Source: a virus. Taken from it: a stretch of DNA of 64,000 nucleotides. Below are positions 26,965-56,543 of the stretch, piece after piece. The notes beneath the pieces were generated by a model. The model ran no database searches and was not told the origin of the DNA. It saw only the letters and a list, made by a program, of their open reading frames with translations. Location of the stretch: the IMG/VR virus record IMGVR_UViG_3300042503_001430, positions 1-64,000 of that record. One strand, given 5' to 3'. The position numbers and the translations under genes are program-made. Each line of letters starts with the position of its first letter. Within the stretch, counting starts at the first letter, position 1.

Positions 26965-28179
26965 ATGAAAACATTTAGACAGTACCTTACAGAAGCATCT
27001 GACAAGAACACACACCTCGAACATCTTGAAGATGAAATTTTCAATGGTGGTGTTGCGGGTACAAAACGTGCTCTCAACTTCTTGCGTGGTCTTCGAAATA
27101 TGTTGTCTGGCTCATCGAAATCGTCAGTCAACGTAACTGTCAAATGGGACGGTGCACCAGCGATTGTTTGTGGAACAAATCCAGAAAACGGCAAATTCTT
27201 TGTTGCAACGAAGAGTGCGTTCAACAAAAACCCCAAACTCAACTACACCCATGCTGACATAGACAAGAACCATTCTGGTGGTCTTGCAGATACTTTGAAG
27301 ATTGCTCTCGACAACCTCTCGCAGTTGGGCATACAGGGTATCATACAGGGTGACTTACTATTCACCAAAGGTGCACTAGACAATATCAACTACGATGGTG
27401 AAAAACTCGTCACATTCAAACCTAATGCTATTACGTATGCGGTACCAGCAGACTCAGACTTAGCACGTCACATTCTTGGCGCCAACATGGGTATCGTATT
27501 TCACACAACCTACGTCGGCGCCACAATTCAAGGTCTGAAAGCAAAGTTTGGTGCTGATATTTCGGGTCTTCGTCACACATCTCGTGTATGGGTCACTGAT
27601 GCAAATTTTAGAGACACCTCTGGTGCAGCAACTCTCACCAAAGATGAGTCGGATATGGTGACAGCAATTCTGAGTGAAATTAAAGTGCTGCTTAGTCAAA
27701 TGGACTCTCAGAGTGTTTCTGCGATTGTTTCTGATCCACAGATTGTGGGTTATGTTAAAGCATACATCAACTCTAAGGTGAAGGTTGGTGAGGGCATTTC
27801 AGGTACCAAAAAATATGCTACTGGTCTCGTTACTTTCATAAAAGGTAAGTTTCAATCTGAGATTGATGCTTTGAAGACAGACCGTGGCAAAGAAGGTAAA
27901 ACTCAAAAGTTGAAGAACACCATTCAATTCATCAACACACATAAAGAGCAGTTTATTATCATGTTCATGATTGCTGCACTCATGACAAGTGTGAAGGGAT
28001 TGTTGTTGTCTAAACTCAAGAAGGTCAGCTCGATTGGCACGTTCTTAGAAACATCAGATGGGTTCAAAGTGACTTCACCTGAAGGTTTCGTTGCAGTAGA
28101 TCATATTGGTAACGCAGTAAAACTCGTAGATCGTCTCGAATTCAGTCGAGCGAACTTCACTATGGAAAAGGGTTGGTAG
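26965..28179 (+). CDS. Capsid-targeted protein with ligase-like motifs (DUF6267-type)
   Basis: 404 residues. Residues 1-10 (MKTFRQYLTE) match the T4 capsid-targeting pattern, with a predicted cut after Glu10. At 58-66 the sequence VKWDGAPAI contains KxDG (Lys60, Asp62, Gly63), the nucleotidyl-Lys motif of ATP-dependent ligases. Downstream are FFVATKS (motif III-like), IIQGDLLF near 129 (motif IV-like) and KLVTFKP (motif V-like). The family is a conserved hypothetical in marine T4-like phages. A head-packaged nucleotidyltransferase or ligase is inferred. The alternative upstream ATG at 26944 would hide the tag. Confidence 0.7.
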   Translation: MKTFRQYLTEASDKNTHLEHLEDEIFNGGVAGTKRALNFLRGLRNMLSGSSKSSVNVTVKWDGAPAIVCGTNPENGKFFVATKSAFNKNPKLNYTHADIDKNHSGGLADTLKIALDNLSQLGIQGIIQGDLLFTKGALDNINYDGEKLVTFKPNAITYAVPADSDLARHILGANMGIVFHTTYVGATIQGLKAKFGADISGLRHTSRVWVTDANFRDTSGAATLTKDESDMVTAILSEIKVLLSQMDSQSVSAIVSDPQIVGYVKAYINSKVKVGEGISGTKKYATGLVTFIKGKFQSEIDALKTDRGKEGKTQKLKNTIQFINTHKEQFIIMFMIAALMTSVKGLLLSKLKKVSSIGTFLETSDGFKVTSPEGFVAVDHIGNAVKLVDRLEFSRANFTMEKGW

Positions 28180-28181
28180 TC

Positions 28182-29072
28182 ATGAAATCGTTTAAGCAAT
28201 TCTTAACAGAGTCATTCAGTCAAGATCACATCAACAAGCTCAAAGCTGAGTATGGTACATTACAAAAAATGGACCCAACCTCACCAGCATACAAGAAGCT
28301 CATCGCTCTTCTTGACAACCTACCTCAAGATCACTTGAAGCAACTTGCAGCAGCAGACATCAAGTTCATTTCGCCACTTGCGAAGAATCGAGTTAAAAAG
28401 TCTGTGTCTGAAGAAGAGTCTATCGATGAGCGTTGTTGGGATGGTTACAAGCCAACACCAGGTAAGAAGCCTTACGAGAAAGGTTCTTGCATGAAAGAAG
28501 AAGATGACCTTCAAGAAGAAGCAGAACATGATGGTAAGAAAGTCACATTGAACAAACCATTCAGAACACCAGACGGACCAAAGAAGTTTGCGGTGTATGT
28601 AAAGAACGATAAAGGTAATGTTGTTAAGGTGACGTTTGGTGATCCTAACATGGAGATCAAACGAGACAGTGATGACAGAAGAGCTAACTTTAGAGCACGA
28701 CACAACTGTGATGATCCAGGTCCGAAGTGGAAAGCACGATACTGGTCGTGCAAGATGTGGTCGAATAAGCCGGTATCAAAAATTGCAGAAGAGACTGTTG
28801 ATGCATCTCAAGCGGCGAAGCTCTTCTCTAAGTTTCTCAGAAGTACTGGTGCGCCAGACAAGGTTGCTAAGTTCACATCAACCAAGAAGAATGTCTTCAA
28901 AGGTCAATCAGCAAAGTTTGACTACTACGTAGACATGGAAAAGAGAACCGTAGCATCTCGACAGAGAAACAGTTTCAATGACACCATCTATGTGTGGGAT
29001 GACAAGACACAAAGTGTGAAGATCGCAGAAGCTAAGATATACTTGGGTGAACTTTTGTCATCTAAAAAATAG
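28182..29072 (+). CDS. Capsid-targeted virion protein with a Cys/Trp-rich module
   Basis: 296 residues with the N-terminal tag MKSFKQFLTE. The middle holds ERCWDGYKPTPGKKPYEKGS (a repeat-like module common in phage virion proteins) and a conserved-looking block with RRANFRARHNC ... KARYWSCKMW, where two Cys and one His could bind metal. It is just downstream of the first tagged protein (2-base gap). Probably packaged in the head; activity unknown. Confidence 0.7.
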   Translation: MKSFKQFLTESFSQDHINKLKAEYGTLQKMDPTSPAYKKLIALLDNLPQDHLKQLAAADIKFISPLAKNRVKKSVSEEESIDERCWDGYKPTPGKKPYEKGSCMKEEDDLQEEAEHDGKKVTLNKPFRTPDGPKKFAVYVKNDKGNVVKVTFGDPNMEIKRDSDDRRANFRARHNCDDPGPKWKARYWSCKMWSNKPVSKIAEETVDASQAAKLFSKFLRSTGAPDKVAKFTSTKKNVFKGQSAKFDYYVDMEKRTVASRQRNSFNDTIYVWDDKTQSVKIAEAKIYLGELLSSKK

Positions 29073-29075
29073 TAT

Positions 29076-30059
29076 ATGAAGTCATTTGAGCAGTACATTT
29101 CAGAAGCTAATCCTGTCGTCGATCAAAAAGCACGATCATTAGCTGCACGTGTGTACAACAGAATGATTTCTCGTCTGAGAGAGTGTTTAGCTAAAGGTAC
29201 TATTGGCACATCGTTTGTTTTCTATACCGCAAACGACAATGTTGGGTTCAATCTTGGCAGACTATTGCGAGAGCCCGACTACTTCGATATTACAATTTGG
29301 TTTGGACCAATGACAAACAAGTTTGGTGGCTACTTCAGTCAGCGTGATGACATGGACATCATCCATTTAGCAAAGTTGTTTCCTACATCAGCCAAAAAGA
29401 TCAAACCAAATCAAGATATGAAGAACTGCGAGATTATTCTCGATGCTGTAGATAAACTACAGCATGATGTCAGAGATGTTTTTGTACATGAGTTCATTCA
29501 CCACCTTGATGATACAAGATACAAATCCAATTCGTATAGAGTTAAAGGTACTCTGGACCTCTCTGGTGGTACATACTACAATGAACCAAAAGAACTTAAC
29601 GCTCACACACAAGAGATGATTGCAAACATGGACTTGTGGTTCAAAGATTACTACGTCTCTACAGTCAATGCTCTCAAGAGTCGCATGGTTGTTGAGTTCA
29701 ATCAAGCGAAAGATGAAGAGGGGTATGAGAATGCTCTGTTTATTGCAGGTAAAATTGTTCGTCACTATGCGCTGATTGTTGAATACCTCGACGACACTCG
29801 AAAGGGTATGGAGTCAATCATCGAAAAAATTCCTGGCTCAAAGAGAGACTTCATGAAGCATTTGACGAGTGAGAATAGAAAGAAAGTGCTCGCTCGATTG
29901 TATCAGTACTACACAGAAACCCTCAATAAACGATTTAAGGTGCTCAAAGAATCGCTACTCTCGGTTGTGAAGAGACTCAACAACAAGAATGCAATAGCGT
30001 ACATTCAGAAAGAGGTTCCAGATACGTATAAATCTCTTGTGCAAATGGGGTTGAAATGA
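29076..30059 (+). CDS. Capsid-targeted HExxH zinc metallopeptidase
   Basis: 327 residues. Tag MKSFEQYISE at 1-10. Zinc motif VHEFIHHLDD with HEFIH at 138-142, followed about 30 residues later by NEPKELNAHTQE, which offers Glu or His as third ligand, as in gluzincin-type enzymes. The C-terminal 130 residues are helical. A protease carried inside the head and injected with DNA, like T4 internal proteins, is the inferred role. Possibly it acts on a host target early in infection. The next gene overlaps by ATGA. Confidence 0.75.
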   Translation: MKSFEQYISEANPVVDQKARSLAARVYNRMISRLRECLAKGTIGTSFVFYTANDNVGFNLGRLLREPDYFDITIWFGPMTNKFGGYFSQRDDMDIIHLAKLFPTSAKKIKPNQDMKNCEIILDAVDKLQHDVRDVFVHEFIHHLDDTRYKSNSYRVKGTLDLSGGTYYNEPKELNAHTQEMIANMDLWFKDYYVSTVNALKSRMVVEFNQAKDEEGYENALFIAGKIVRHYALIVEYLDDTRKGMESIIEKIPGSKRDFMKHLTSENRKKVLARLYQYYTETLNKRFKVLKESLLSVVKRLNNKNAIAYIQKEVPDTYKSLVQMGLK

Positions 30060-31069
30060 AAACGCTATCTGAAGTGGTGAAGAAAAAGAGTGCTGTGTTT
30101 GCGTTTGGTAGAATGAATCCACCAACATCTGGTCATGAGAAATTGATCAAGAAAGTTCTCGAAGTTGCAAAGAAGAATAATGCAACCCCGTTCATTTTCG
30201 TATCACACACACAAGACCCAAAAAAGAATCCACTCACCAGTAAGCAAAAGATTAAGTATCTGTCTTTGGGCATGCCTGATGTTGAGAAGTATCTTGTGTA
30301 TGACCCTTCGGTAAAAACGCCGTTTGATGCTCTTGGGTACATTCAGAACAAAGGGTTTACTGATGTGATACTTGTAGCTGGTTCTGATCGTGTCAAAGAG
30401 ATGAAAGATTCTCTAGCTAAGTACATAAACCACCCCGATCCAGAAAAACGATTTACGTTGAATTCTTTTGATGCTGTCAGTGCTGGTGACAGAGATCCAG
30501 ATGCAGATGGTGTTACTGGTATGAGCGCATCAAAAATGAGGGCCGCAGCAGCAAGTAACGATTTCAATCTTTTCAAGAGTGGCGTTCTTTCGCACCTGAG
30601 CGACAGGTTTGCGAAAGCTATGTTCAATGATCTTCGCACAGCCATGCAAATTCACGAGATGGTTGAAGAGGTGAAGACGCTGAAAAATACGTTGAACATT
30701 CCTAGACGTGAGATGCCACAAATCAAGCGAGACCACATTCCTGAGTTTATCAAAGATTTGAAGAAAAGAGGTATCGACATCAGCAACAGATCAATACCTG
30801 TTGACACACTCAAGCCAACACAGAATGAAGTGAACCTCGATAAAGTCAAAGAGAAGTATCAGAAGTTTGTCGATGGTAAAGAGCCAAAACCATTTATTGT
30901 GTCACATGATAATTACATACTAGATGGTCATCACCAACTGTTCGCACTCAAGACACTCGATGGTGATCGTAAGGTTCCATGTTACGTGGTTGGTATTAAG
31001 ATGAAAGACTTGTTGAAGATCGCACATAAGTTTCCTAAGACAACCTATAAAACAATACTCGATAAATAG
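30056..31069 (+). CDS. Nucleotidyltransferase (HIGH-type) fused to a ParB/Srx-like domain
   Basis: 337 residues. N-terminal adenylyl/cytidylyltransferase fold: GRMNPPTSGH at 18-27 (GxxNPxxxGH) and a later MSASKMRAA (ISxxxxR-like). The C-terminal third has VSHDNYILDGHHQLFAL, the ParB/sulfiredoxin DGHHR-like motif. The N-terminus MKTLSEVVKKK looks like a degraded capsid-targeting peptide without the Glu. It is coupled to the metallopeptidase gene through ATGA. It could be an NMN-type adenylyltransferase; substrate not inferable. Confidence 0.75.
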   Translation: MKTLSEVVKKKSAVFAFGRMNPPTSGHEKLIKKVLEVAKKNNATPFIFVSHTQDPKKNPLTSKQKIKYLSLGMPDVEKYLVYDPSVKTPFDALGYIQNKGFTDVILVAGSDRVKEMKDSLAKYINHPDPEKRFTLNSFDAVSAGDRDPDADGVTGMSASKMRAAAASNDFNLFKSGVLSHLSDRFAKAMFNDLRTAMQIHEMVEEVKTLKNTLNIPRREMPQIKRDHIPEFIKDLKKRGIDISNRSIPVDTLKPTQNEVNLDKVKEKYQKFVDGKEPKPFIVSHDNYILDGHHQLFALKTLDGDRKVPCYVVGIKMKDLLKIAHKFPKTTYKTILDK

Positions 31070-31073
31070 ACAT

Positions 31074-31415
31074 ATGAAGACGTTCAAGCACTACATCGCT
31101 GAAGCTGAGAAGAACAGCACTAAGCCAAAGACAAACACCGACAAAGCTCGTGAGCGACAGACACGAGAAAAAGATGAGTTGAAGGTGCGCCAAAATCGTG
31201 AGATGGAAAAAGCACGTGAGCAAGACTTTCGACAAAAAGAAGCTGAGAAGCGTCAAAAAGAACTTCAAAAGAGAGCAGAGCAAAATGCTAAGAAACAAGA
31301 GTCTACTGACCCTTCGGTAGAAGTTGAATCTGAAGTGGATTTTGTTCCTGAGTATCTTGAAGATGGCACATTGGTCTTGGTGAAGAGCTATAAATCCTCA
31401 ACGCCAGGTCAATAA
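31074..31415 (+). CDS. Small charged capsid-targeted internal protein
   Basis: 113 residues. Tag MKTFKHYIAE, then a very charged Lys/Arg/Glu/Gln helical stretch (KARERQTREKDELKV, EKRQKELQKRAEQ) and a short C-terminal beta-like end (YLEDGTLVLVKSYK). Composition and size resemble T4 internal proteins (IPI-IPIII). It likely binds packaged DNA or is injected. Confidence 0.72.
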   Translation: MKTFKHYIAEAEKNSTKPKTNTDKARERQTREKDELKVRQNREMEKAREQDFRQKEAEKRQKELQKRAEQNAKKQESTDPSVEVESEVDFVPEYLEDGTLVLVKSYKSSTPGQ

Positions 31416-31419
31416 TAAA

Positions 31420-31449
31420 TTGACAACATATATGAAATTGATGTAAAAT
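31420..31449 (+). promoter_or_regulatory. Sigma70 promoter
   Basis: TTGACA (31420-31425), 18 bp, TAAAAT (31444-31449). It lies 26 bases before the Thr-rich gene and inside the late cluster, giving that gene its own early expression. Confidence 0.75.
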
Positions 31450-31474
31450 TGTTTTATTTTTGTGGAGTATCACT

Positions 31475-31777
31475 ATGACAACCTCAGACCAAACAACTCA
31501 AGCTACCGAGACCGCAGAGACAACCGAGACGACAGAAACAACTCCTGAAGTTGCGGTATCTTCTCCAACTCTGACAGCAGAACAAGAGATCAATGCTCTT
31601 CGAGCTGCACACCAGTTCTTTTCAAATTTTGATCGAGTTCCTGGATTTGCTGCTAACCAGTGGTCGCAAGCTCTCGACACTATCGCAGTGGTAGCAAACT
31701 CTCTCATCAACAAGACCAACGGCAAGACACCAGACACGACCGACACTAATGCTGCCGACGAGACGGTGACACAATAA
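31475..31777 (+). CDS. Hypothetical Thr-rich small protein
   Basis: 100 residues. The N-terminal 30 residues are a low-complexity Thr/Glu repeat (ETAETTETTETT). A helical core follows (EINALRAAHQFFSNFDRVPG), then a Thr/Asp-rich tail. It has its own sigma70 promoter. Not recognised. Start chosen at ATG 31475 behind GTGGAG. Confidence 0.7.
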   Translation: MTTSDQTTQATETAETTETTETTPEVAVSSPTLTAEQEINALRAAHQFFSNFDRVPGFAANQWSQALDTIAVVANSLINKTNGKTPDTTDTNAADETVTQ

Positions 31778-31782
31778 CTTAT

Positions 31783-31790
31783 GCTAAATA
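31783..31790 (+). promoter_or_regulatory. Possible late promoter (GCTAAATA)
   Basis: GCTAAATA is only 10 bases from the next ATG, so a transcript from it would be almost leaderless. Weak support. Confidence 0.3.
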
Positions 31791-31799
31791 CATGCTTGT

Positions 31800-31985
31800 A
31801 TGCCATTTTACGAGTATTCGTGTAAAAATTGTGGAATCATTGAGGTTCGTCAGAGCATTTCTGACGAACCATTAAAGAAGTGTCCAACCTGCAAAGATAA
31901 GGTTGAGCGTCTTATATCTGTTACTGGTCAGCCACAATTCAAAGGAAAAGGCTTTTACCAAACAGACTATAAGAAGGCTAAGTAA
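31800..31985 (+). CDS. FmdB-family zinc-ribbon protein, first copy
   Basis: 61 residues. MPFYEYSCKNCG and KKCPTCKDKVERL give two CxxC pairs, the FmdB/CxxC-CxxC-SSSS putative regulatory domain. The C-terminus KGKGFYQTDY is also typical for the family. A second FmdB-like gene lies at 53564. The stop overlaps the next start (TAATG). Confidence 0.8.
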   Translation: MPFYEYSCKNCGIIEVRQSISDEPLKKCPTCKDKVERLISVTGQPQFKGKGFYQTDYKKAK

Positions 31986-32854
31986 TGTGCGTTGTTGCTT
32001 GCAAGTATATTGAGAACATCGGATGGGTGCTTGCAAAGAACCGAGACCGCAACTATAAGCCTATCGTTCGCATACGCAAATCATTTCGAGAAAATACCGA
32101 ACGTCTCTATATCTGGGATGAAAAAACCAAGTACACAGAAGGTGTTAATGAATTTGGTGTGGGTATCATCAGCGCAAGCGTTACGGTGAAAGAAGATGAA
32201 GCTGAGGGTGAAAAAGCTTCTAAGAAGACGCCAGATCTTAACAGAAAACCAAGAACTTTCTACTCTCCAGATGGACTTCGCATTCGCACAGCACTCTTCG
32301 AGAAAACTGCTGTTGATGCTGCTCGTGTTCTAATCGAACTCGAAATACCAGGTAACACGATTGTTGCAGACAAAGAGCGATGTTTTCTCATCGAGGGCGG
32401 TTTCATTCGAGAGAATGAGTATGTCTACAAGGTTGTGGAAGTACCAAAAGAGAAGATTGCAGTCAGAACGAATCATGGAATCTTTCTCACCTGGACTGGG
32501 TACAGTCGTGAGGTTCCAGATCAAGTAGAGAAGCGAGAGTCATCTGAGGTTCGATATAAGAAAGCTGTAGCTGGTCTGAAGAAAGCTAAGACCTTCGAAG
32601 AGGTTTTGGAAGCGATGTCACTCGTCGATGATGAGAATCCACAAATGAATCCACTTCGACTTGATGATACTCGAAATTCAATGAGAACAACGGGTCAGAT
32701 CGTCATAGTTCCAAACGAGCACACTCTTCACTATCGAGCCATATGGTGTGAGACCATATTCGATTTGGATAAACTAAATACAGAGAATGAAAAGACGTTC
32801 TTTGAGATTGTTTCCACAAGAAAACTGATTAGCTTTAAGAACTTTGTAAAATAG
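31985..32854 (+). CDS. Ntn-hydrolase (acyltransferase/choloylglycine-hydrolase-like)
   Basis: 289 residues. Cys2 after the initiator Met is the expected N-terminal nucleophile (MCVVACKYIENIGWVLAKN), followed by the NRDR motif. VRTNHGIF in the middle matches the TNHG signature of C45/C59-type N-terminal nucleophile hydrolases. The enzyme would cleave an amide bond after maturation by Met removal. Substrate unknown. Unusual for a phage late cluster. Confidence 0.75.
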   Translation: MCVVACKYIENIGWVLAKNRDRNYKPIVRIRKSFRENTERLYIWDEKTKYTEGVNEFGVGIISASVTVKEDEAEGEKASKKTPDLNRKPRTFYSPDGLRIRTALFEKTAVDAARVLIELEIPGNTIVADKERCFLIEGGFIRENEYVYKVVEVPKEKIAVRTNHGIFLTWTGYSREVPDQVEKRESSEVRYKKAVAGLKKAKTFEEVLEAMSLVDDENPQMNPLRLDDTRNSMRTTGQIVIVPNEHTLHYRAIWCETIFDLDKLNTENEKTFFEIVSTRKLISFKNFVK

Positions 32855-32863
32855 GAACCCGTT

Positions 32864-33931: not shown

Positions 33932-33936
33932 TTCTG

Positions 33937-34515
33937 ATGAAGACGTTTTTAGAATTTATCACTGAAGCTCCAGTTGCAGCACCAACACAAACTGCTCTTC
34001 CTGAGATTTACCTCGACATGGACGAAACCATCGTCGATTGGATGAAAGGTGCTAACAAAGCTCTTGTCGCTGCTGGCTACCCAGAGTGGAACAACTCGTT
34101 CTGGAATAAGTACAGCGAAGAAGAAGCTGATGTGATTCGTTGGGGTGTGCTAAATGACACCCCAAATTTTTGGGAAAACCTGGACTTCATGCCAGATGGT
34201 AAAGCAATCTGGAACTTCGTGAAGAAGTACAAACCAAAGATTCTTAGTGCGTGTGGTAGCAAAGCTGGTAGCATTTGTCGTGAAGGTAAAATGCGCTGGT
34301 TGACTAAACATCTCGGCATGAACAACCTCAGTGGGGTTCATCTCGTGACACGCTCTGAAAAGAAGAAGTATGCGGTTGTAAATGGTAGACCAACCATTTT
34401 GATTGATGACTACGACAAGAACTGTGTTGAGTACAAAGCTGCTGGTGGTATACCAGTCAAAGCTACAACTGGTTCTGAAGTCATCTCAAAGCTGAAAAAG
34501 ATTGGATTTAGATAA
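33937..34515 (+). CDS. Capsid-targeted HAD-family phosphatase (5'(3')-nucleotidase-like)
   Basis: 192 residues. Tag MKTFLEFITE, then HAD motif I YLDMDETIVDW (Asp27, Asp29), motif II ILSACGS and motif IV ILIDDYDKN. The cap is small, and the NFWENLDFMPDG segment recalls deoxyribonucleotidases. A nucleotide phosphatase injected from the head could act on host nucleotides or phosphorylated ends. This is inference from the tag. Confidence 0.78.
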   Translation: MKTFLEFITEAPVAAPTQTALPEIYLDMDETIVDWMKGANKALVAAGYPEWNNSFWNKYSEEEADVIRWGVLNDTPNFWENLDFMPDGKAIWNFVKKYKPKILSACGSKAGSICREGKMRWLTKHLGMNNLSGVHLVTRSEKKKYAVVNGRPTILIDDYDKNCVEYKAAGGIPVKATTGSEVISKLKKIGFR

Positions 34516-34518
34516 ATA
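34511..34518 (+). promoter_or_regulatory. T4-type late promoter (GATAAATA)
   Basis: GATAAATA overlaps the stop codon of the HAD gene and is 36 bases before the next start. Confidence 0.55.
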
Positions 34519-34546
34519 ATCTCAGGTAACTAACACGGAGTCTCAC

Positions 34547-35440
34547 ATGCCACTTTGGGGTAAGAAAGATAAAACAGCAGATCGTCCAAAATTTGTACAC
34601 GTAAATGCAGACGGCAGCATCAGGCAAGATGCTTCTGGTCGTAAGCTTGTGTTCTTAGATACTGCTGAATCTGCCGCAAATGCAGACAAAGGTGCTCAGG
34701 GTGCTGGTTGGTATCTTGTTCTCAAGACAGGCTCAGGCGAATCACAAAGAATTAGAATGGAGAAGATCGTGTCTATCTCAACCACAAATGAGATTGGCAT
34801 AAACACAGACGATCTTGCGATAGACTCTGTTCCTGTAGTTCAGAACTTTGTGTATCCTTCGAATGCTTCTGTATACACTGATGGTGCAGCAGGTGTTCCT
34901 GATCCTAACAATAGAGATGGCTGGTACTTCATTAATAATACCGCAGGTAAAAAGATCAACTGGTATTTCTTTGATGGTGCAGCTAATGATGTCAAGCTTG
35001 CAGACTTCTCTGCATATGCGGTTGTGACCATAGACTCAACATCGAATGACAATGCTCCATTCTTTGGGTTGTACACAACTCGACAGAATGATGGTCAAGA
35101 TGCTGCTGCGTGGTATCGTTCACGAATAGTTTACACAATACCTGGCAGTTTCACACCAGGCACAAAGTATTTGATTCATTTTGGTGCTGATCCTGAAGTT
35201 TATCCAGACTTGCCTAGACTTGTTCTCACGCCAGTTACGACCGCAGGTATAAATCGTGGTCCACGAGCTGGTACCGAGCGTGTGCTTACAGTAGCACTCA
35301 ACACAAACTCATCATCTGCGGTAAATTCAGTCAAGCTTGTTGCTGAAGCTGTTGGTGTTTCGTCTAGTACATACAACGTAAACACCGAGCTTACTAACGA
35401 TGATAGTCAAAGTATCGAAACTGATTCTGGACTTGAATAA
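34547..35440 (+). CDS. Virion structural protein with an LWGK-type N-terminal domain
   Basis: 297 residues. The N-terminal 70 residues (MPLWGKKD ... DASGRKLVFLDT ... GAGWYLVLKTG) are shared with the next gene. The remainder is Ser/Thr/Asn-rich beta-structure (GWYFINNTAGKKINWYFFDG), and the C-terminus has repeated Val/Ser/Asn strands. LWG-starting proteins of this kind are structural proteins of unknown location in marine T4-like phages. Late promoter upstream. Confidence 0.65.
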   Translation: MPLWGKKDKTADRPKFVHVNADGSIRQDASGRKLVFLDTAESAANADKGAQGAGWYLVLKTGSGESQRIRMEKIVSISTTNEIGINTDDLAIDSVPVVQNFVYPSNASVYTDGAAGVPDPNNRDGWYFINNTAGKKINWYFFDGAANDVKLADFSAYAVVTIDSTSNDNAPFFGLYTTRQNDGQDAAAWYRSRIVYTIPGSFTPGTKYLIHFGADPEVYPDLPRLVLTPVTTAGINRGPRAGTERVLTVALNTNSSSAVNSVKLVAEAVGVSSSTYNVNTELTNDDSQSIETDSGLE

Positions 35441-35457
35441 TTAATAGAGGTAGTACT

Positions 35458-35763
35458 ATGTCACTTTGGGGTAAAACATACGATAAGAAGCCAAAACACC
35501 TTACTCTAGCTGAAGATGGTGTTACAGTAGCTCATGATGCTTCTGGTAAGAAGCTCGTGTTGATTGATAGCGAAGAAGCTCTTGCAGCAGCAAACAAAGA
35601 GTTGGGCATCACATCACCAGGTTGGTATCTTGTTCAAAAGACGAATACTCGAACCAAGGTTGAGCTTTTGATTGCACTCGCAAGTGTTGATCGTCAAGAA
35701 GAAACTGAAGAAGAGATAGAGACCGAAACTGATTTGGGTATCACAGACCCAGACTCAGAATAA
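35458..35763 (+). CDS. Short paralogue of the preceding LWGK-type protein
   Basis: 101 residues. MSLWGKTYDKKPKHLTLAEDG, DASGKKLVLIDS and PGWYLVQKTN (each part of a longer match) align with the N-terminal domain of the upstream protein. The C-terminus is acidic (EETEEEIETETDLG). The gene contains only the shared domain. Tandem duplication and loss of the C-terminal region is the simplest reading. A terminator overlaps its stop codon. Confidence 0.65.
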   Translation: MSLWGKTYDKKPKHLTLAEDGVTVAHDASGKKLVLIDSEEALAAANKELGITSPGWYLVQKTNTRTKVELLIALASVDRQEETEEEIETETDLGITDPDSE

Positions 35764-35775
35764 TCTGAGTTTTTA
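35753..35775 (+). terminator. Intrinsic terminator overlapping a stop codon
   Basis: ACTCAGA-ATAA-TCTGAGT forms a perfect 7-bp stem whose loop contains part of the TAA stop codon of the LWGK paralogue; TTTT follows. Confidence 0.72.
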
Positions 35776-35777
35776 TT

Positions 35778-36188
35778 ATGCTTTCATCGCATCATGATAC
35801 TATGAATCAGCGATTGACTGAACAGAATTACATCATGTTTGCGATGAAGCACTATCAGAACCCCCAGTGTCTCAACATCGATGAATTTCACAACGACCTC
35901 AAGAGAATCAAATACATCAAGCGTCTGTTGAGTCGATATGTGGCTTCTGGCGAGTTAAAAGAACGTCTCATACTCAATCACCTCATCATTCTCTACAACT
36001 CATTTGGTGCTGAAGCAACCAAGCTCTTGTTCTTCAAGATAGACAAACAGTACTGGTCACAGCTCAAAACATTCTTGGTGTTTCTTCATTACATGCCAGA
36101 AGTTCTGCACCTTGTTGCAGACAAGCCGGTTCGTAGTACTGACATAGCTCTCGATCTATCAATCGTCGAAGTGTTGAGGAAGATATGA
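35778..36188 (+). CDS. Conserved hypothetical phage protein
   Basis: 136 residues (128 if the in-frame ATG at 35802 is used, giving MNQRLTEQNYIMF). The helical sequence includes KHYQNPQCLNIDEFHNDLKRI, YIKRLLSRY and LKERLILNHLIILYNSF. This pattern is a conserved hypothetical family in marine T4-like phages (recalled). No catalytic residues visible. The next gene overlaps its end (ATGA). Confidence 0.75.
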   Translation: MLSSHHDTMNQRLTEQNYIMFAMKHYQNPQCLNIDEFHNDLKRIKYIKRLLSRYVASGELKERLILNHLIILYNSFGAEATKLLFFKIDKQYWSQLKTFLVFLHYMPEVLHLVADKPVRSTDIALDLSIVEVLRKI

Positions 36189-36541
36189 AGTCATTTCGAA
36201 CATTCTTATCTGAAGAGAAGCGCACGTTCAGTAAAGACCAAGCAAAACACATTGGCGATAAGCTCTCGGTTGACTGGTCAAAAGTTGACATAAACCAGTT
36301 CATTCTTGGATTGTCTGTCGAGTCTGAGCATGACGATGGTGGAAAACTTGATGTTGTGGATTCTGATGCTGACTTAGCCAAAATTGTGTTAGCACATTTA
36401 AGAGAACTTCCAGATTATTATTCCAAGCTCAAAAAGGTGGAAGAAGAAGTTCCAGCAAATTCTATTTCGGGGAATGGAATTGCCGGTTTGAAAGAACCTA
36501 TCGTTTTCCGAAAAAAGCGTTCCACTATTTCCAGACGTTAA
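36185..36541 (+). CDS. Capsid-targeted DUF5661-like protein
   Basis: 118 residues. Tag MKSFRTFLSE, then a compact helical domain: RTFSKDQAKHIGDKL, VDINQFILGLSVESEH and LAKIVLAHLRELPDYYSKL, the pattern of DUF5661. The end carries a GNGIAGL motif frequently seen at C-termini of phage virion proteins. Probably packaged in the head; function unknown. Confidence 0.72.
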   Translation: MKSFRTFLSEEKRTFSKDQAKHIGDKLSVDWSKVDINQFILGLSVESEHDDGGKLDVVDSDADLAKIVLAHLRELPDYYSKLKKVEEEVPANSISGNGIAGLKEPIVFRKKRSTISRR

Positions 36542-36546
36542 AATTG

Positions 36547-36575
36547 TTGTTCTACGTTCATGTGTGTGCTACACT
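36547..36575 (+). promoter_or_regulatory. Sigma70-like promoter
   Basis: TTGTTC (36547-36552), 17 bp, TACACT (36570-36575), 30 bases before the next start. An AATAAATA late-like element at 36592 is too close to the ATG to be convincing. Confidence 0.5.
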
Positions 36576-48015: not shown

Positions 48016-48016
48016 C

Positions 48017-48262
48017 GTGATTGCTGCTATTATTATCATGCTCGGTCTGTTCGTGTCTGGATTTGTTGTGGGTTACACCGCACGATATTCAGATGAGCAG
48101 AATATCTGTCGTCGAATTGAAAAAGATGTCTACTGTCATGGTTATGAAGACGGTTTCTACCTTGGTTGGGGTGAGTATGAACCCGAAGCGTTTCGTAAAG
48201 AGATTGCAGAGAAAGCATACTACGAGTACAAGGGTCTAAAGCACGGACCAGAAAGACACTAA
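48017..48262 (+). CDS. Small membrane protein (GTG start)
   Basis: 81 residues. An N-terminal transmembrane helix (AAIIIMLGLFVSGFVVGY) is followed by a soluble tail with two Cys and aromatic residues (YCHGYEDGFYLGWGEYEPEAF, in part). GTG 48017 has GGAG eight bases upstream. Not recognised. Confidence 0.65.
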   Translation: MIAAIIIMLGLFVSGFVVGYTARYSDEQNICRRIEKDVYCHGYEDGFYLGWGEYEPEAFRKEIAEKAYYEYKGLKHGPERH

Positions 48263-48263
48263 A

Positions 48264-50434: not shown

Positions 50435-50443
50435 GTATAATTC

Positions 50444-50472
50444 TTTACAACAACAATGCGCTCGTGTATAAT
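50444..50472 (+). promoter_or_regulatory. Near-consensus sigma70 promoter for RNase H
   Basis: TTTACA (50444-50449), 17 bp and a perfect TATAAT (50467-50472). Expected transcription start is about 50479, giving a short leader with GCGGAGG. Confidence 0.85.
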
Positions 50473-50504
50473 AAAAGGTAGAACTACAAAGTAGCGGAGG
50501 CGTT

Positions 50505-51392: not shown

Positions 51393-51402
51393 TGGAGTTA
51401 TG

Positions 51403-51933
51403 ATGTCTTCCCTGAGTGTTGCAGAGGTTGTTCAGTTATTGAAGTCTGCGAAGACCAAGAACGAGCGAACTCAAATATTGAAAACTCATGATTCACCTGC
51501 ACTGCGTGGAATCTTGAGAATGAATTATGACGCATCTTTGGTTTTGTCGCTACCCGAAGGTAAGCCACCATACACCCCGATGGCGGTACCACAGGGTTTT
51601 GGTAACACGACATTGAAGGTTTCTGCTAAGGGTTGGTACGTTTTCAATAGAGAGAACACACCGAACCTCAGACAGTCAAAACGAGAGGCGATGTTTATTA
51701 GTTTGCTAGAAGCTCTTGATCCGGTAGAAGCAGAAATTCTTCTCGCTGCGAAAGACAAGAAGCTTGAGTTGGGTCTAACCAAAAAGGCAATCGACGAAGT
51801 ATTTCCAGGTTTGATAAAATCTGAAGGTAAGACTAATGGCAAAAAAGAACAGTCAGCAAAAGCAGCTAACAACGCAGCAAGCACCGCCACTGAGAGCGAT
51901 GGTGAAGCTGCACGAACTGATACTGACATTTGA
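51403..51933 (+). CDS. Conserved phage protein (DUF6433-like)
   Basis: 176 residues. N-terminal helices (VAEVVQLLKSAKTKNERTQIL), LRGILRMNYDASLVLSLPEG and REAMFISLLEALDPVEAEILL fit a conserved hypothetical family of T4-like phages next to rnh (DUF6433 by recollection). The C-terminus is an Ala/Lys/Glu-rich disordered tail. ATG 51403 is at better distance from GGAG than 51400. Confidence 0.75.
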   Translation: MSSLSVAEVVQLLKSAKTKNERTQILKTHDSPALRGILRMNYDASLVLSLPEGKPPYTPMAVPQGFGNTTLKVSAKGWYVFNRENTPNLRQSKREAMFISLLEALDPVEAEILLAAKDKKLELGLTKKAIDEVFPGLIKSEGKTNGKKEQSAKAANNAASTATESDGEAARTDTDI

Positions 51934-52105
51934 TACTAACAAGCCAAACGAGCAGATCGAAGCACAAGCAATTCACCTGTTAGATGAAATTAACAAACTT
52001 CTCTGCAAGCATTTCAAAGAGTTGTTGCCACAGGTCTATAAAGATCCAAAGAAGAAGACTAAGATTTCAGTTGTTCCAATCACTCCAGAAGACCTTGAAG
52101 AATAG
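51836..52105 (+). CDS. Hypothetical small protein
   Basis: 89 residues, starting inside the previous gene's disordered tail in another frame. A Gln/Lys-rich head (KKNSQQKQLTTQQAPP) and helical body (AIHLLDEINKLLCKHFKELL). Not recognised. Confidence 0.68.
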   Translation: MAKKNSQQKQLTTQQAPPLRAMVKLHELILTFDTNKPNEQIEAQAIHLLDEINKLLCKHFKELLPQVYKDPKKKTKISVVPITPEDLEE

Positions 52106-52128
52106 TTTGGATACTTCGGTTTTGTAGC

Positions 52129-52136
52129 CATAAATA
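52129..52136 (+). promoter_or_regulatory. T4-type late promoter (CATAAATA)
   Basis: CATAAATA, 36 bases before the membrane-anchored metallopeptidase-like gene. Confidence 0.72.
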
Positions 52137-52164
52137 AAATAGGCTATAAACACGTAGGTACCGA

Positions 52165-52794
52165 ATGAATTTACTACTTTCAGCACTCGTCTCTCTCGTC
52201 AGAGTATCTGTAAAAATCTTCTTTGCAGTGCTACCCTCCGTTTTGGTTCTTGCAGTATTGACTCAGCCAGAGATTTTGATGAATCGTGGTGTCTCGGTAA
52301 TTAGCAAGACTGACCATGTAGCTATTCACGAGTTGTTTCCAAACTCTTCATGGAATGACCTTGAGCCATGCGGTAAGTATTTCGATGAGCTAGAAGAGTT
52401 TCGCAAAGCTCGACAGTGCGTAAATGATAACGTGTGGTCGGATAGACCTCTCACCTCTAACGAGCTAGATTTTCCTATTCCTCGCTGCTACATCGTGAAA
52501 GCACACGGCCCTAATGTTCTCTCAAAAGATGGAATCAACTTCATACCAATATTTGATGGTATGGGTGTGGGTGCTATTGTTGGTGTTTATCAACCAGAGA
52601 CGCATACCGTGTATGTTGTAGAGAACGTAGACGCACCTATGGTGTATCGTCACGAACTTCAGCACTACTTCTTACATGAGCATGACCCAGAAACTTCGGG
52701 TGGTGGTCATCACCAGCCTATTTGGCAAAAGTGTGAACCTCCATATTACACACCTTCAAAGAAGGCTGAAGCTCTCGGCAAGAAAGAAGATTAG
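52165..52794 (+). CDS. Membrane-anchored HExxH metallopeptidase-like protein
   Basis: 209 residues. An N-terminal hydrophobic helix (IFFAVLPSVLVLAVL) is a signal anchor. VYRHELQHYFLHEHDPE contains HELQH at 163-167, and GGGHHQPIW follows with possible third His ligand. Late promoter upstream. A periplasmic zinc peptidase acting late (envelope or lysis) is an inference. Confidence 0.65.
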   Translation: MNLLLSALVSLVRVSVKIFFAVLPSVLVLAVLTQPEILMNRGVSVISKTDHVAIHELFPNSSWNDLEPCGKYFDELEEFRKARQCVNDNVWSDRPLTSNELDFPIPRCYIVKAHGPNVLSKDGINFIPIFDGMGVGAIVGVYQPETHTVYVVENVDAPMVYRHELQHYFLHEHDPETSGGGHHQPIWQKCEPPYYTPSKKAEALGKKED

Positions 52795-52940
52795 CTCTTC
52801 TTTTTGGATCTAGGCTTTTTTGTGGATTTCTCTTCCTTTTTCGTGGATATTGGAAGTGGTCCAGCATTACAAGCCTTTATCAATCCAAGCTTGAACAATA
52901 CTTGACAGATCAGACACTTAATTCGCTTCTTAATATTCAT
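52791..52940 (-). CDS. Small antisense ORF, Cys-containing basic peptide
   Basis: 49 residues from ATG 52940 on the minus strand: IKKRIKCLICQVLFKLGLIK followed by a Lys/Ser-rich tail (STKKEEKSTKKPRSKKKS). Its end overlaps the end of the plus-strand metallopeptidase-like gene by 4 bases. The codon pattern looks plausible and otherwise this 200-base stretch would be empty, but support is weak. Confidence 0.4.
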   Translation of the reverse strand: MNIKKRIKCLICQVLFKLGLIKACNAGPLPISTKKEEKSTKKPRSKKKS

Positions 52941-52958
52941 ACTTACCCATAAAGTTGT

Positions 52959-52986
52959 TTGTGTGTCGCACACAGTGTGATATACT
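52959..52986 (+). promoter_or_regulatory. Sigma70-like promoter with a palindrome in the spacer
   Basis: TTGTGT (52959-52964), 16 bp, TATACT (52981-52986). The inverted repeat GTGTG-TCG-CACAC (52961-52973) overlaps the -35 and spacer and may be an operator. The next ATG is at 52993, so the leader is very short. Confidence 0.55.
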
Positions 52987-52992
52987 ATATGT

Positions 52993-53577
52993 ATGAATAT
53001 TTTCTACCTTTCTTCTGACCCCGTACAAGCTGCACGTTACCACCTCGACAAGCACGTTGTAAAAATGATACTTGAGACCGCACAACTTCTCAGTACCGCA
53101 CATCGTATGCTCGACGGCGTGCAGACTCAAGTTTCCAAAACCACCAAGACTGGTAAGCAGAAGACAGTCAAGCGTTACATACTCGCAAACCCTCTACACA
53201 ACGAGATTGTCTACAGTGCTACGCATATCAACCATCCGTGCGCCATCTGGTGTCGTGAGAACATAAATAACTATATGTGGTTATATGAGCTTTTCGTGGC
53301 GCTGTGTGACGAATATACTTACCGCTACGGCAAAAAACATAGGTCTGACATCTTACTGCGTGACATTCTCAAGTCGCCGCCGACCAGCATTTCTCACGCA
53401 CCATTTACACCACCAGCACAAGCGATGCCTGACCGATACAAACATGCTGACCCTGTTGTTGCGTATCAGCAATATTACATCGGCGAAAAATACAGATTTG
53501 CCAGATACACAAAACGCCCACGTCCTGCTTGGTTCAAAGTCACCGATTATCATGGGGGTGAACATGCCAACGTATGA
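52993..53577 (+). CDS. Conserved hypothetical phage protein (DKHVVKM family)
   Basis: 194 residues. NIFYLSSDPVQAARYHLDKH and VVKMILETAQLLSTAHRMLDG (each within length) form a very conserved N-terminal block of a phage family seen next to nucleotide and repair genes. HPCAIWCRENINNYMWLYEL and a C-terminal RYTKRPRPAWFKV complete it. The end faintly recalls T4 endonuclease V (PTWYKYYG), but I do not assign that activity. Confidence 0.78.
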   Translation: MNIFYLSSDPVQAARYHLDKHVVKMILETAQLLSTAHRMLDGVQTQVSKTTKTGKQKTVKRYILANPLHNEIVYSATHINHPCAIWCRENINNYMWLYELFVALCDEYTYRYGKKHRSDILLRDILKSPPTSISHAPFTPPAQAMPDRYKHADPVVAYQQYYIGEKYRFARYTKRPRPAWFKVTDYHGGEHANV

Positions 53578-53824
53578 TTATACTTGCTCTAAGTGTGGTC
53601 ACACATTTGAACGAATCTGTCGAATCGCTAACAGGCTCGATGCAGAACAGGAACCGTGTCCTGGCTGTAACGATAAATGTTGTGTGAGTTTGACGATCAA
53701 CACACCTTCTCTTGTAAGTCCGTTTCGAGTTGATGGTTTAGTTAAACCGAAGGGTGACTTCAAAGAACGTATGCAACAGATCAAATCAAAATCGGGTAGA
53801 AAAAACACTATTAAGGATTACTAA
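53564..53824 (+). CDS. FmdB-family zinc-ribbon protein, second copy
   Basis: 86 residues. MPTYDYTCSKCGHTFE and PCPGCNDKCC give the two Cys pairs of the FmdB domain. Related to the protein at 31800. It starts inside the end of the preceding gene behind GGGGGTG. The C-terminus is Lys-rich. Confidence 0.78.
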   Translation: MPTYDYTCSKCGHTFERICRIANRLDAEQEPCPGCNDKCCVSLTINTPSLVSPFRVDGLVKPKGDFKERMQQIKSKSGRKNTIKDY

Positions 53825-53827
53825 TCC

Positions 53828-54598
53828 ATGGGCAAACGGTCCAGCAGAAAAAACGCACATCACGAGCCGCAAGAAGAGACAGTTTTTGAGGAGATAGTAG
53901 ATCCTTATCGCCGACAGAAAAAGCTACTCAAGCACAATTTTCCGTTAGGTCAGATTACTCCATTAACTGACAATCAAGAAGCTGCGTTTCATGCAAATGG
54001 TTCTGCAAAGAATCTCGTTCTGTATGGTGTTGCTGGCACAGGTAAAACATTTCTTGCGTCTTATTTCGCACTCAGTGATCTTGTTGCGGGTCATGCAAAA
54101 CGAATCATCATTGTTCGAAGTGCAGTGACAACACGTGATCAAGGTTTCTTACCAGGTACGCTTCAAGAAAAAATGGCTATGTACGAAGCGCCATATCGTG
54201 AAGTGTTTGCTGAATTGTGTGGTGGTAGACGTGATGTCTATGATGTTCTCAAGAAGAAAGACTACCTTGAGTTCATGTCAACATCATTCATTCGAGGTGT
54301 CACATTCGATGATGCAATTATCATCGTAGATGAAATTCAGAACCTCACCGATCATGAAGTCAATTCTGTGTTGACTCGTGTTGGTAAAAATACTCGTGTC
54401 ATTCTTTGTGGTGACACACGACAGAACGATCTTAAAATGACGGGCAAGAAGAATCAAGAAACTGGTATGCCAGGTCTGCTGTCGGTTGCGAGAGCGATGA
54501 ACAGTTTTGCGCTCGTCGAGTTCGGTGTGAAAGATATTGTGCGCTCTGGTTTCGTCAAAGAGTACATCATCACACGCATCAATCTTGGACTCGATTGA
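53828..54598 (+). CDS. phoH: PhoH-like ATPase
   Basis: 256 residues. Walker A GVAGTGKT at 67-74, RSAVTTRDQGFLPGTLQEKM (a PhoH hallmark, truncated), Walker B IIIVDEIQNLTDHE and a CGDTRQND motif. PhoH-like proteins are widespread in marine phages; function possibly RNA helicase or ATPase. 3 bases after the FmdB stop. Confidence 0.93.
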   Translation: MGKRSSRKNAHHEPQEETVFEEIVDPYRRQKKLLKHNFPLGQITPLTDNQEAAFHANGSAKNLVLYGVAGTGKTFLASYFALSDLVAGHAKRIIIVRSAVTTRDQGFLPGTLQEKMAMYEAPYREVFAELCGGRRDVYDVLKKKDYLEFMSTSFIRGVTFDDAIIIVDEIQNLTDHEVNSVLTRVGKNTRVILCGDTRQNDLKMTGKKNQETGMPGLLSVARAMNSFALVEFGVKDIVRSGFVKEYIITRINLGLD

Positions 54599-54619
54599 TT
54601 CTGAAAGAACGATAAAATC

Positions 54620-54648
54620 TTGCTTTTTCGTTTCATTTTGTGTACATT
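54620..54648 (+). promoter_or_regulatory. Sigma70-like promoter
   Basis: TTGCTT (54620-54625), 17 bp, TACATT (54643-54648). 33 bases before the next start codon. Confidence 0.6.
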
Positions 54649-54680
54649 ATGAAAGCAGTATTCATTAAAGGTGATTGAAC

Positions 54681-55130
54681 ATGGCAAAGAACACAAAGAA
54701 GACAGAGGGTGTAAAGCACGACCAGCAGAAAATCCGTTGGGACTTGATTCCATACGATGCAGTCAATGAGATTGCTAAAGTACTCACTTTCGGTGCAGCG
54801 AAGTATGAAGCACGAAATTGGGAAAAGGGTATGGATTGGTCACGTGCGTTCGGTGCACTACAACGCCACCTCACTCGATGGTTTCATGGTCAAGATAAAG
54901 ACAAAGAGACCAAACTCACTCACTTAGCAAATGCTGGTTGTTGCTTGTTCTTTCTACTCTCATGGGAGCTTCGTCAAGTTGGTAATGACGACCGACCGAA
55001 GTTAGATCCAAAACTTCTTGAGCACATGGATGATACAGAATTCATGCAAAATGTATTCGAACTTCTCAAGCAGGTAAACCAGCAACAATCCACAGAAGAC
55101 GAAGAAGTTGCAGAGAACCTTCCAAACTAG
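54681..55130 (+). CDS. dATP/dGTP pyrophosphohydrolase-like protein (DUF5664)
   Basis: 149 residues. GVKHDQQKIRWDLIPYDAV, VLTFGAAKYEARNWEKGMDW, LQRHLTRWFHGQDKD and LTHLANAGCCLFFLL match the DUF5664/MazG-superfamily pattern with its metal-binding Glu/Asp/His set. Members hydrolyse dATP/dGTP in some phages (MazZ). No PurZ-like adenylosuccinate synthase is visible in this window, so Z-base DNA is not implied. Confidence 0.82.
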   Translation: MAKNTKKTEGVKHDQQKIRWDLIPYDAVNEIAKVLTFGAAKYEARNWEKGMDWSRAFGALQRHLTRWFHGQDKDKETKLTHLANAGCCLFFLLSWELRQVGNDDRPKLDPKLLEHMDDTEFMQNVFELLKQVNQQQSTEDEEVAENLPN

Positions 55131-55143
55131 GTTCATGTAAATA

Positions 55144-55172
55144 TTGACAATCACATAAATCTTGTGTATACT
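55144..55172 (+). promoter_or_regulatory. Consensus sigma70 promoter for tmRNA
   Basis: TTGACA (55144-55149), 17 bp, TATACT (55167-55172). The predicted start at about 55179-55181 coincides with the mature 5' end of the tmRNA. Confidence 0.9.
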
Positions 55173-55180
55173 GGTTTTAC

Positions 55181-55568
55181 GGGCCTGCGTAGTTTCGACA
55201 AGCTGTAGGAACTAGCCTCTCCCACAACACGATGATGGTTCTTGGCATCGTAATAAATGAACCACCGTTTAAGTGCAAACTTCAACGACTCTGCTTACGC
55301 CTTAGCTGCATAAGCCGTGGTGTGTAACTGTTCTGCTAGTTACGTTACACACTGCGAAACTCAAACTAGCGGTGCTCACGGATAACCGTTCGTAACGTGA
55401 GGGTAAAACCTAATCTTGGAGCGGGAATAGTGGCTACCCACTACCGACATGACTTAGAGGTGTTTGATCTGTAAAGTCTGAGGTCTATTAATTGATCAAC
55501 CTATTGTTGTAAACGGAACTAGAGAACACAGCTTGAACAACGGGTGCGACTCCCGTTCAGGTCCACCA
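55181..55568 (+). ncRNA. ssrA: Phage-encoded transfer-messenger RNA (tmRNA)
   Basis: 388 bases. The 5' end GGGCCTG pairs with CAGGTCC (55558-55564), followed by discriminator A and CCA (55565-55568): a 7-bp acceptor stem. The T arm is ACGGG-TGCGACT-CCCGT. Near the 5' end TAGTTTCGAC corresponds to the conserved tmRNA D-loop region. The tag frame begins at GCA 55275 and reads ANFNDSAYALAA followed by TAA (55311-55313), ending in the canonical YALAA degron. It is one-piece, with its own promoter. It would rescue stalled ribosomes and tag products for ClpXP, perhaps suited to phage-modified translation. Confidence 0.95.
55275..55313 (+). other. tmRNA tag reading frame (ANFNDSAYALAA)
   Basis: Twelve codons and a TAA stop inside the tmRNA. 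With the alanine from the charged tmRNA the tag would be AANFNDSAYALAA. The N-terminal part differs from the common ANDENYALAA; the C-terminal YALAA recognised by ClpX is kept. Confidence 0.92.
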
Positions 55569-55574
55569 ATTTGT

Positions 55575-55582
55575 CATAAATA
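55575..55582 (+). promoter_or_regulatory. T4-type late promoter (CATAAATA)
   Basis: CATAAATA, 7 bases after the tmRNA end. The expected late start (about 6 bases downstream) is at 55588, exactly the first base of the structured RNA element. Confidence 0.75.
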
Positions 55583-55587
55583 GTAAC

Positions 55588-55677
55588 GGGTTTGTCACTA
55601 GGAAGTGTTTTTACCGTTTCCTGCTGCGAATCTGACTCCGAAGCGGAACGGTGCCAGGAGTTAGAAGTGACAAGCCC
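55588..55677 (+). ncRNA. Three-way-junction RNA element with a kissing loop
   Basis: Closing helix P1: 55588-55599 with 55666-55677 (GGGTTTGTCACT/AGTGACAAGCCC, 12 bp, one G-U). P2: AGGAA (55600-55604) with TTCCT (55618-55622). P3: TCTGACTCC (55631-55639) with GGAGTTAGA (55657-55665), 9 bp with one G-U. The P2 loop ACCGT (55613-55617) is complementary to ACGGT (55648-55652) in the P3 loop. All unpaired junction bases are in one linker (55623-55630). The element starts at the predicted late transcription start and ends 11 bases before the next ATG. No known family recognised; a ribozyme, riboswitch-like leader or stabilising 5' cap are options. Confidence 0.72.
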
Positions 55678-55688
55678 ACTTGAATATT

Positions 55689-56543
55689 ATGAAAAACTTT
55701 TCAGAATTTCTAACAGAATCAATACTCGACCCCGAACAAGCTACCTTGTCGCCACAGGTGTTTGATGCAGACGGTACGAAGCTCAAGCCTGAAGTTCGCA
55801 CTCAAATCATCGCAGGTATCTCGAAGCTTGCTGATAAAGCTAACGTGGTAGACTACACACTCATTGGTAGCATACTCACGAAGCGATATGCACCAGACTC
55901 AGATATTGATGTGAACATTCTTATCAACACCAAGCAGAGTCAGATTGATGATATTCGCTCGTTAGCTGTCAGTCTCAGTGGCAAAACCATCACCGGCACA
56001 AAACACCCAATCAACTACCACGTCTTAGCAGACAAAACAGATTTTGATAATGCAAACGAATCTGCTGATGGTGTGTTTGACATCAGCAACAATACGTTCA
56101 TACGAAAACCAACCGAAAAGCCATTTCACATCGAGAAGTACTTCGGTGAATTCAAGAATGTTGTCTCTAAGATTGACGCACTCAAAGACGATTTGAAAGA
56201 TGACTTGATTGACTACTCGGTGTTGAAAGCATTCTCAGAAGAAGACATGACGAACCTTCGCAAGATGATTGAGAAAGAGCTTGATGAGATTGAGAGTGAT
56301 GTGAAGGGTCTTTCTGCACTCTATGACAAAATCTGGAAAGACAGAAACGCAGGGTTTCAGAAGAAGCTTACGCCCAAAGAGATTCGAGAATATGGCACCA
56401 AGAATCGACTACCAGGTAATGTCATCTACAAGTTGCTTGAGCGTCACCACTACCTTCAATTTTTACATCAGGTAGAAGAGATTGTAGCAGACGGCAAAGT
56501 TTCTGAAAAAGAAGCTGATAAATTGATTGACATTGTTTTCTAG
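55689..56543 (+). CDS. Capsid-targeted Pol-beta-type nucleotidyltransferase
   Basis: 284 residues. Tag MKNFSEFLTE at 1-10. At 58-78 the minimal nucleotidyltransferase signature is LIGS (Gly60, Ser61) followed by SDIDVNILI (Asp72, Asp74). A third acidic residue could be in INYHVLADKTD. The C-terminal 130 residues are helical with ELDEIESDVKGL and a GKVSEKEADKLID end. Such enzymes modify RNA, tRNA or proteins (NMPylation). A head-packaged version could modify a host target on injection. Its mRNA begins with the three-way-junction RNA. Confidence 0.78.
   Translation: MKNFSEFLTESILDPEQATLSPQVFDADGTKLKPEVRTQIIAGISKLADKANVVDYTLIGSILTKRYAPDSDIDVNILINTKQSQIDDIRSLAVSLSGKTITGTKHPINYHVLADKTDFDNANESADGVFDISNNTFIRKPTEKPFHIEKYFGEFKNVVSKIDALKDDLKDDLIDYSVLKAFSEEDMTNLRKMIEKELDEIESDVKGLSALYDKIWKDRNAGFQKKLTPKEIREYGTKNRLPGNVIYKLLERHHYLQFLHQVEEIVADGKVSEKEADKLIDIVF

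Follow-up and report, generated by a model that had tools for sequence, protein, structure and literature searches.

In phage T4, the internal proteins IPI, IPII and IPIII carry an N-terminal tag of ten residues, aromatic at positions 4 and 7 and reading [LI]-x-E at 8-10, in front of otherwise unrelated cargo; in IPII and IPIII its sequence is MKTYQEFIAE. Mutagenesis of IPIII showed that, within this capsid-targeting sequence (CTS), targeting depends chiefly on residues 4 and 7 and processing on residues 8 and 10, the protease gp21 cutting after L/I-x-E, while an Asp in position 10 was reported to block processing and leave targeting intact (PMC9026906). T4 internal proteins bearing this tag are injected (PMC9391042, PMC12373910), and their known functions are anti-restriction, as those T-even cargo proteins whose function has been tested (three in T4) are small and inhibit type IV restriction enzymes. 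A similar logic operates in phiKZ-like phages (phiKZ and SPN3US), in which a gp21-type protease cleaves head-packaged proteins on the C-terminal side of a Glu, albeit at an S/A-x-E motif unlike the one considered here, and ejection into the host has been reported for giant phages (PMC9026906). As for phage P1, DarA and Hdf are reported to be head-associated proteins (PMC12810830). Here, we analyze the 87,583-bp IMG/VR record IMGVR_UViG_3300042503_001430, a partial genome of an uncultured T4-type virus related to marine T4-like phages, in which, unlike in T4, at least ten proteins, several of them enzyme-like, start with such a tag. The ejection proteins of phiKZ-like phages and DarA/Hdf of P1 are not known to have a short common ten-residue tag.

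A shared N-terminal tag on unrelated proteins

The window, which corresponds to bases 1-64,000 of the record (the remainder was read as L001 and L002), contains seven open reading frames (ORFs), encoding 113-404 residues, whose products begin with M-K-[TSN]-F-x-x-[YF]-[LI]-x-E at residues 1-10. An earlier, sequence-only reading had proposed seven tagged starts, and all seven match in both coordinates and residues. These seven are real, but the set is larger: the record holds at least ten strict matches and probably a degenerate one, at 13764 (Table 1). All ten strict tags have aromatic residues in positions 4 and 7 and [LI]-x-E at residues 8-10, the latter being where the near-match at 83072 deviates. 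The constrained columns of the tag (4, 7, 8 and 10) coincide with precisely those four residues on which the CTS of T4 IPIII depends. As in T4, the cargo behind the tag belongs to different families, as judged from Pfam and PHROG. Since strict tags number only 0-3 per genome in eight cultured or sequenced isolates, the present record is unusually tag-rich.

Could such a pattern arise by chance or from misassigned start codons? Three of the seven ORFs do have alternative upstream TTG starts. With the amino-acid composition of the record itself, however, a match has a probability of 8e-7 per start, which amounts to ~1e-4 expected matches among ~134 genes against the ten strict ones found. This count and the tags retained by orthologues (see below) refute an artefact, to which we assign a negligible probability.

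The nearest relatives, G002 (L294) and G003 (L295 and L296), were reached via their gp55 gene, not via the tag. The tag is present in 6/6 orthologues in G002 (marked in Table 1) and 3/4 in G003, i.e., nine of ten altogether, the exception being the 33937 orthologue of the second relative, in which it is eroded. The orthologues of eight untagged neighbors (30056, 31460, 31985, 32864, 34547, 35458, 35778 and 36560) are untagged too. The propeptides of the major capsid protein (MCP) in these relatives end in the same [LI]-x-E, as GILTE/SLPVN and GIITE/SLPAN (G002), with cut points read from the motif. Their gp21 is 59-60% identical to that of cyanophage S-CREM2, and in G002 gp21, gp23 and the tagged cluster lie on one contig.

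A mobile DNA module made of promoter and start region, spread by recombination and yielding the peptide as a by-product, would also produce a repeated N-terminus. Late promoters do lie immediately upstream of several tagged genes, and the T-even ip loci have been called a genomic hotspot (PMC12373910). Nevertheless, pairwise identity among the ten tags is 70% at codon positions 1 and 2 and falls to 44% at position 3, and orthologues hold the peptide although residues 3, 5, 6 and 9 vary. Therefore, the tag is a peptide signal, and it is the peptide that is under selection. We have rejected a recombination module on this codon divergence and regard it as scarcely credible.

Tagged relatives in T4, in cyanophage virions and in viral contigs

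We scored N-termini with a position matrix trained solely on 108 tags from viral contigs. T4 ipIII, whose start MKTYQEFIAE had been quoted in the earlier reading and is confirmed in the T4 sequence, scores 17.7; ipI, which has a longer leader, scores 2.9. A pattern search of the whole T4 genome returned ipII, ipIII and gene 61.1, the reversed-pattern control giving no match. Gene 61.1 (AF158101 18966-19130, minus strand) encodes a small protein with a CTS-like start, MKTFKEFIKE.

Mass spectrometry (MS) detected 52/219 proteins in S-CREM2 virions (PMC10665884, Table 3). When the 219 N-termini were ranked by the matrix, the top five were all among those detected: the cytidylyltransferase ORF154 (MKNFSSFLTEA), the kinase ORF14 (MKRFDAFLTEE, from a GTG start), the S-adenosylmethionine (SAM) hydrolase ORF6 (MKDFDSFLEEF), ORF13 and ORF136. 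This enrichment has a p value of 6.5e-4, or 4.4e-5 without the 24 named structural proteins. In the Cas9-like ORF12, LRFASFMAEA occurs slightly downstream of the annotated N-terminus. Four S-CREM2 virion proteins have the tag itself, or a sequence closely resembling it, at or near their N-terminus, and in contrast to the present record this phage has three strict tags only, in 175 kb. The part of the S-CREM2 paper at hand lists these proteins as virion components with no mention of a targeting sequence (PMC10665884). ORF6 is 35% identical to the SAM lyase family protein at 13764 in the window, a probable further cargo. In S-SM1, just one annotated gene start scores above 3, that of a cytidylyltransferase (MKKFSAFLNEA, 27.0), and the corresponding cluster, T4-GC190, is named as detected in S-SM1 virions (Sullivan et al., PMC3037559). 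A DUF6267 gene, untagged, adjoins it. The P-HM2 GC190 gene is annotated "similar to Synechococcus phage S-SM1 protein," a note that we take to mark virion detection and that the P-HM2 DUF6267 gene does not carry. In the open-access literature, a T4 review was the only paper that we found to connect capsid targeting with cyanophages.

The sequence-only reading had also suggested a motif search in related genomes, and the DNA pattern of the tag occurs in at least 120 stretches of IMG/VR viral contigs. Among the true-pattern matches listed, 118/124 mark the start of an ORF with a minimum length of 60 residues, and a permuted-codon control across all of IMG/VR gave 20 matches, 6 of which do so. 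After stripping the tag, the cargo clusters into at least 57 families with no detectable mutual similarity. They include the anti-CBASS protein Acb1 (2.8e-23), SAM lyase, ART-PolyVal ADP-ribosyltransferase and GNAT, as well as adenylate kinase, an APH-like kinase, HAD and cytidylyltransferase. In one contig (L095), at least six different tagged genes stand in tandem over ~3.5 kb, one being ADP-ribosyltransferase-like and another related to the metallopeptidase-like protein at 77714. PADLOC matches among the tagged cargo were few and mostly weak, and were not used.

Two further sequence features recur in tagged or virion proteins. In the largest cargo family, the tag is immediately followed by a conserved GLxGDGHGxWYDxxG-like segment, which links it to various enzyme domains (S-CREM2 ORF12 and ORF14, S-SM1 SSM1_190, L045:6676-8097 and many further viral contigs). 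Some virion or tagged proteins (L080:339-1253, SSM1_197 and S-CREM2 ORF160) have a GFTGAAAPxGPxAGxDP-like stretch, which resembles the N-terminal arm of mature MCP.

Several observations weigh against capsid targeting. Some tagged relatives, T4 61.1 among them, are not known head proteins, which is what might be expected if the ten residues were another N-terminal signal (for a binding partner, the membrane or degradation) merely resembling a CTS. The virion data come from S-CREM2 and S-SM1, not from the present virus, and both phages may have close kin among the contigs used to train the matrix, the MS labels being independent of it. The published S-CREM2 table gives no cleaved N-termini, and its authors warn that abundant soluble proteins may co-purify (PMC10665884). 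In S-SM1, P-HM2 and others, DUF6267 lacks the tag, so its function need not always involve it; the orthologues in Pelagibacter phage HTVC008M have no strict tag either, which shows that the tag is not universal to its cargo families. Finally, protein searches found neither gp21 nor gp23 in the record. Since the record is a fragment that starts just past gp23, this null is uninformative: by synteny with the relatives, its left end runs from a tail gene at 229 through UvsW, gp55, gp47 and gp46, with the capsid genes off that end. A Pfam Gp23 search matched nothing in the record or in the controls and is equally uninformative. Against another kind of signal stand the match to four mutationally mapped CTS residues and to the gp21 motif, the S-CREM2 and S-SM1 virion data, and the presence of a T4-like core gene in 83/120 of the tag stretches listed vs. 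4/20 control stretches, which together make it very improbable. The T4-type capsid targeting proposed in the sequence-only reading is thus supported by the tagged relatives in virions, the four CTS residues and the [LI]-x-E of MCP.

Genes and promoters of the locus

As can be seen in Table 1, most tagged genes of the window lie in one cluster. The labels first given to their products have mostly stood. The protein at 31074 was called charged and internal-protein-like, and 44% of its 113 residues are K, R, E or D; the HAD, DUF5661 and nucleotidyltransferase labels are borne out by profile matches, the last one above the cut-off. That of a metallopeptidase (29076) is based on HEFIHH and on an ELNAH further downstream, and an orthologue with 40% identity has retained both motifs. 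"Cys/Trp-rich" was an overstatement for the protein at 28182, with four Cys and five Trp in 296 residues.

The label "ligase-like" for the DUF6267 protein is a matter of motifs. K60, D62, G63 and E373-G374 are invariant in 43 sequences and W61 is nearly so, and this K60-W-D-G motif (KxDG) suggests a nucleotidyltransferase/ligase-type fold. An AlphaFold model built with 43 homologues has a predicted local distance difference test (pLDDT) score of 86.7, with a block mean of 46 for the first ten residues and a well-predicted domain after them, as expected for a removable leader. However, the model has no significant fold match in the PDB, and profile searches gave no convincing PDB relative. Consequently, that this protein is ligase-like can be no more than a guess from its motifs.

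Table 1. Tagged genes, neighbors and late-promoter-like sequences (positions in the record; residue after the slash, first after the predicted cut; "G002" denotes orthologues in that relative)
Feature	Position	Strand	Matches and motifs	Orthologue or homologue N-termini
Tag MKTFRQYLTE of DUF6267 protein	26965..26994	+	predicted cut before A11	
DUF6267 protein, 404 residues	26965..28179	+	Pfam DUF6267 6.5e-119	MRTFRQYITES (G002), MITFKKYITEA
Tagged protein, MKSFKQFLTE/S	28182..29072	+	phrog_7595-like	MKRFKVFITES (G002)
Tagged protein, MKSFEQYISE/A	29076..30059	+	HEFIHH, metallopeptidase-like	MKSFVEYITEA (G002)
Untagged cytidylyltransferase-like protein, MKTLSEVVKKK	30056..31069	+	PF01467 4.5e-6	
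Tagged protein, MKTFKHYIAE/A, 113 residues	31074..31415	+	internal-protein-like	MKDFKTFINEA (G002), MKKFKVYIKES
Tagged protein, MKTFLEFITE/A	33937..34515	+	HAD/5'-3' deoxyribonucleotidase-like, phrog_2643 1e-21	MKSFRTYLKED (G002)
Untagged "LWG" protein, paralogue of 35458	34547..35440	+	late promoter upstream	
Untagged head protein within cluster	35458..35763	+	phrog_613 2.4e-10	
Tagged protein, MKSFRTFLSE/E	36185..36541	+	DUF5661, Pfam 2.6e-19	MKTFSQFLLEA, MKPFSQFISEA, MKTYRQLITEA (G002)
Tagged protein, MKNFSEFLTE/S	55689..56543	+	nucleotidyltransferase fold, NTP_transf_2 PF01909 4.1e-5	MKSFYQYITES
SAM lyase family protein, degenerate MFTFKQQQLHE/S	13764..14318	+	PF23780 8.5e-15	
Strict tag outside window, MKSFKEFLTEA	77714	+	HELTH	
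Strict tag outside window, MKRFTQYLTEA	83881	+		
Strict tag outside window, MKRFIHYLIEA	82568	-	DnaJ domain 1.3e-7	
Near-match outside window, MKRFKHYIADLTES	83072	+	D10, then L-T-E directly	
Late-promoter-like CATAAATA	26931..26938	+	26 nt ahead of 26965 start	
Late-promoter-like GATAAATA	31061..31068	+	5 nt ahead of 31074 start	
Late-promoter-like GATAAATA	34511..34518	+	precedes head-protein pair 34547/35458	

The motif NATAAATA is a cyanophage late promoter (PMC2984593). It lies at most 30 nt upstream of 5/11 tagged genes (26965, 31074, 77714, 83072 and 82568 on the minus strand), compared with about 6-7 of the ~123 others (Fisher p ~ 5e-4). Late expression, as read from this consensus, would fit with tagged proteins being made when heads assemble. 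In several places, the promoter 8-mers end 5-6 nt before an ATG (31061-31074 in the window; 77701-77714, 80671 and, on the minus strand, 66277 in the record), and late mRNAs would therefore be leaderless or nearly so, if the T4 spacing holds.

Some other genes deserve mention. The homologues of the untagged cytidylyltransferase-like protein at 30056 are tagged and virion-detected in other phages. The untagged cluster gene at 31985-32854 shows weak, sub-threshold similarity to C45 acyltransferases/hydrolases; in its product, the residue after the initiator Met is Cys here but Ser in two relatives, which alters the expected N-terminal nucleophile. The DNA polymerase gp43 is apparently split into two ORFs (20305-21768 and 22894-24000) with gene 22387 between them, as in the S-CREM2 annotation (subunits A and B). 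Near UvsW, a GIY-YIG-type endonuclease ORF (1835-2551, minus strand) is probably a homing endonuclease insertion.

A putative delivery route for enzyme-like cargo

Together, these findings make it very likely that the ten residues represent the T4-type capsid-targeting system extended to enzyme-like cargo. By mechanism, placing the cargo set with the T4 system is well supported, the placement of this virus itself being provisional. Since tagged proteins of related viruses have been found inside the particle, this virus probably carries mixed head cargo. The aromatic residues 4 and 7 would dock late-made proteins into the scaffolding core of the prohead, a gp21-family prohead protease would cut after Glu10 at [LI]-x-E, and removal of the tag would release the protein within the head for ejection together with the DNA. 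Unlike the small T-even inhibitors, the cargo would include enzyme-like proteins (the DUF6267 and J-domain proteins, the metallopeptidase, the nucleotidyltransferase, the HAD phosphatase and, probably, the SAM lyase), which might act in the host as the "arsenal" envisaged in the sequence-only reading.

The tagged proteins might instead enter the prohead core to work in head assembly or DNA packaging and never be injected as effectors. A head protein (phrog_613) does sit within the same cluster, the promoters are late, and the relatives' data show virion association, not delivery. We consider this unlikely, since injection is the fate of the T4 internal proteins that bear this tag and since Acb1, SAM lyase, ADP-ribosyltransferase and kinases fit action in the host better.

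What is new with respect to T4 is the scale, the enzyme-like nature of the cargo and the spread in environmental T4-like phages. It seems reasonably likely, with less confidence than for capsid targeting itself, that the T4 peptide is a widespread delivery code in these phages, by which dozens of unrelated proteins (a J-domain protein, metallopeptidases, kinases, Acb1, SAM lyase and ADP-ribosyltransferase among them) reach the head and are injected from it, with effectors predictable from ten residues. If so, a plain motif search would predict first-response effectors, including counter-defense proteins that act before phage transcription. It would also account for the "non-structural" enzymes in cyanophage virion proteomes, and is open to direct test in cultured phages.

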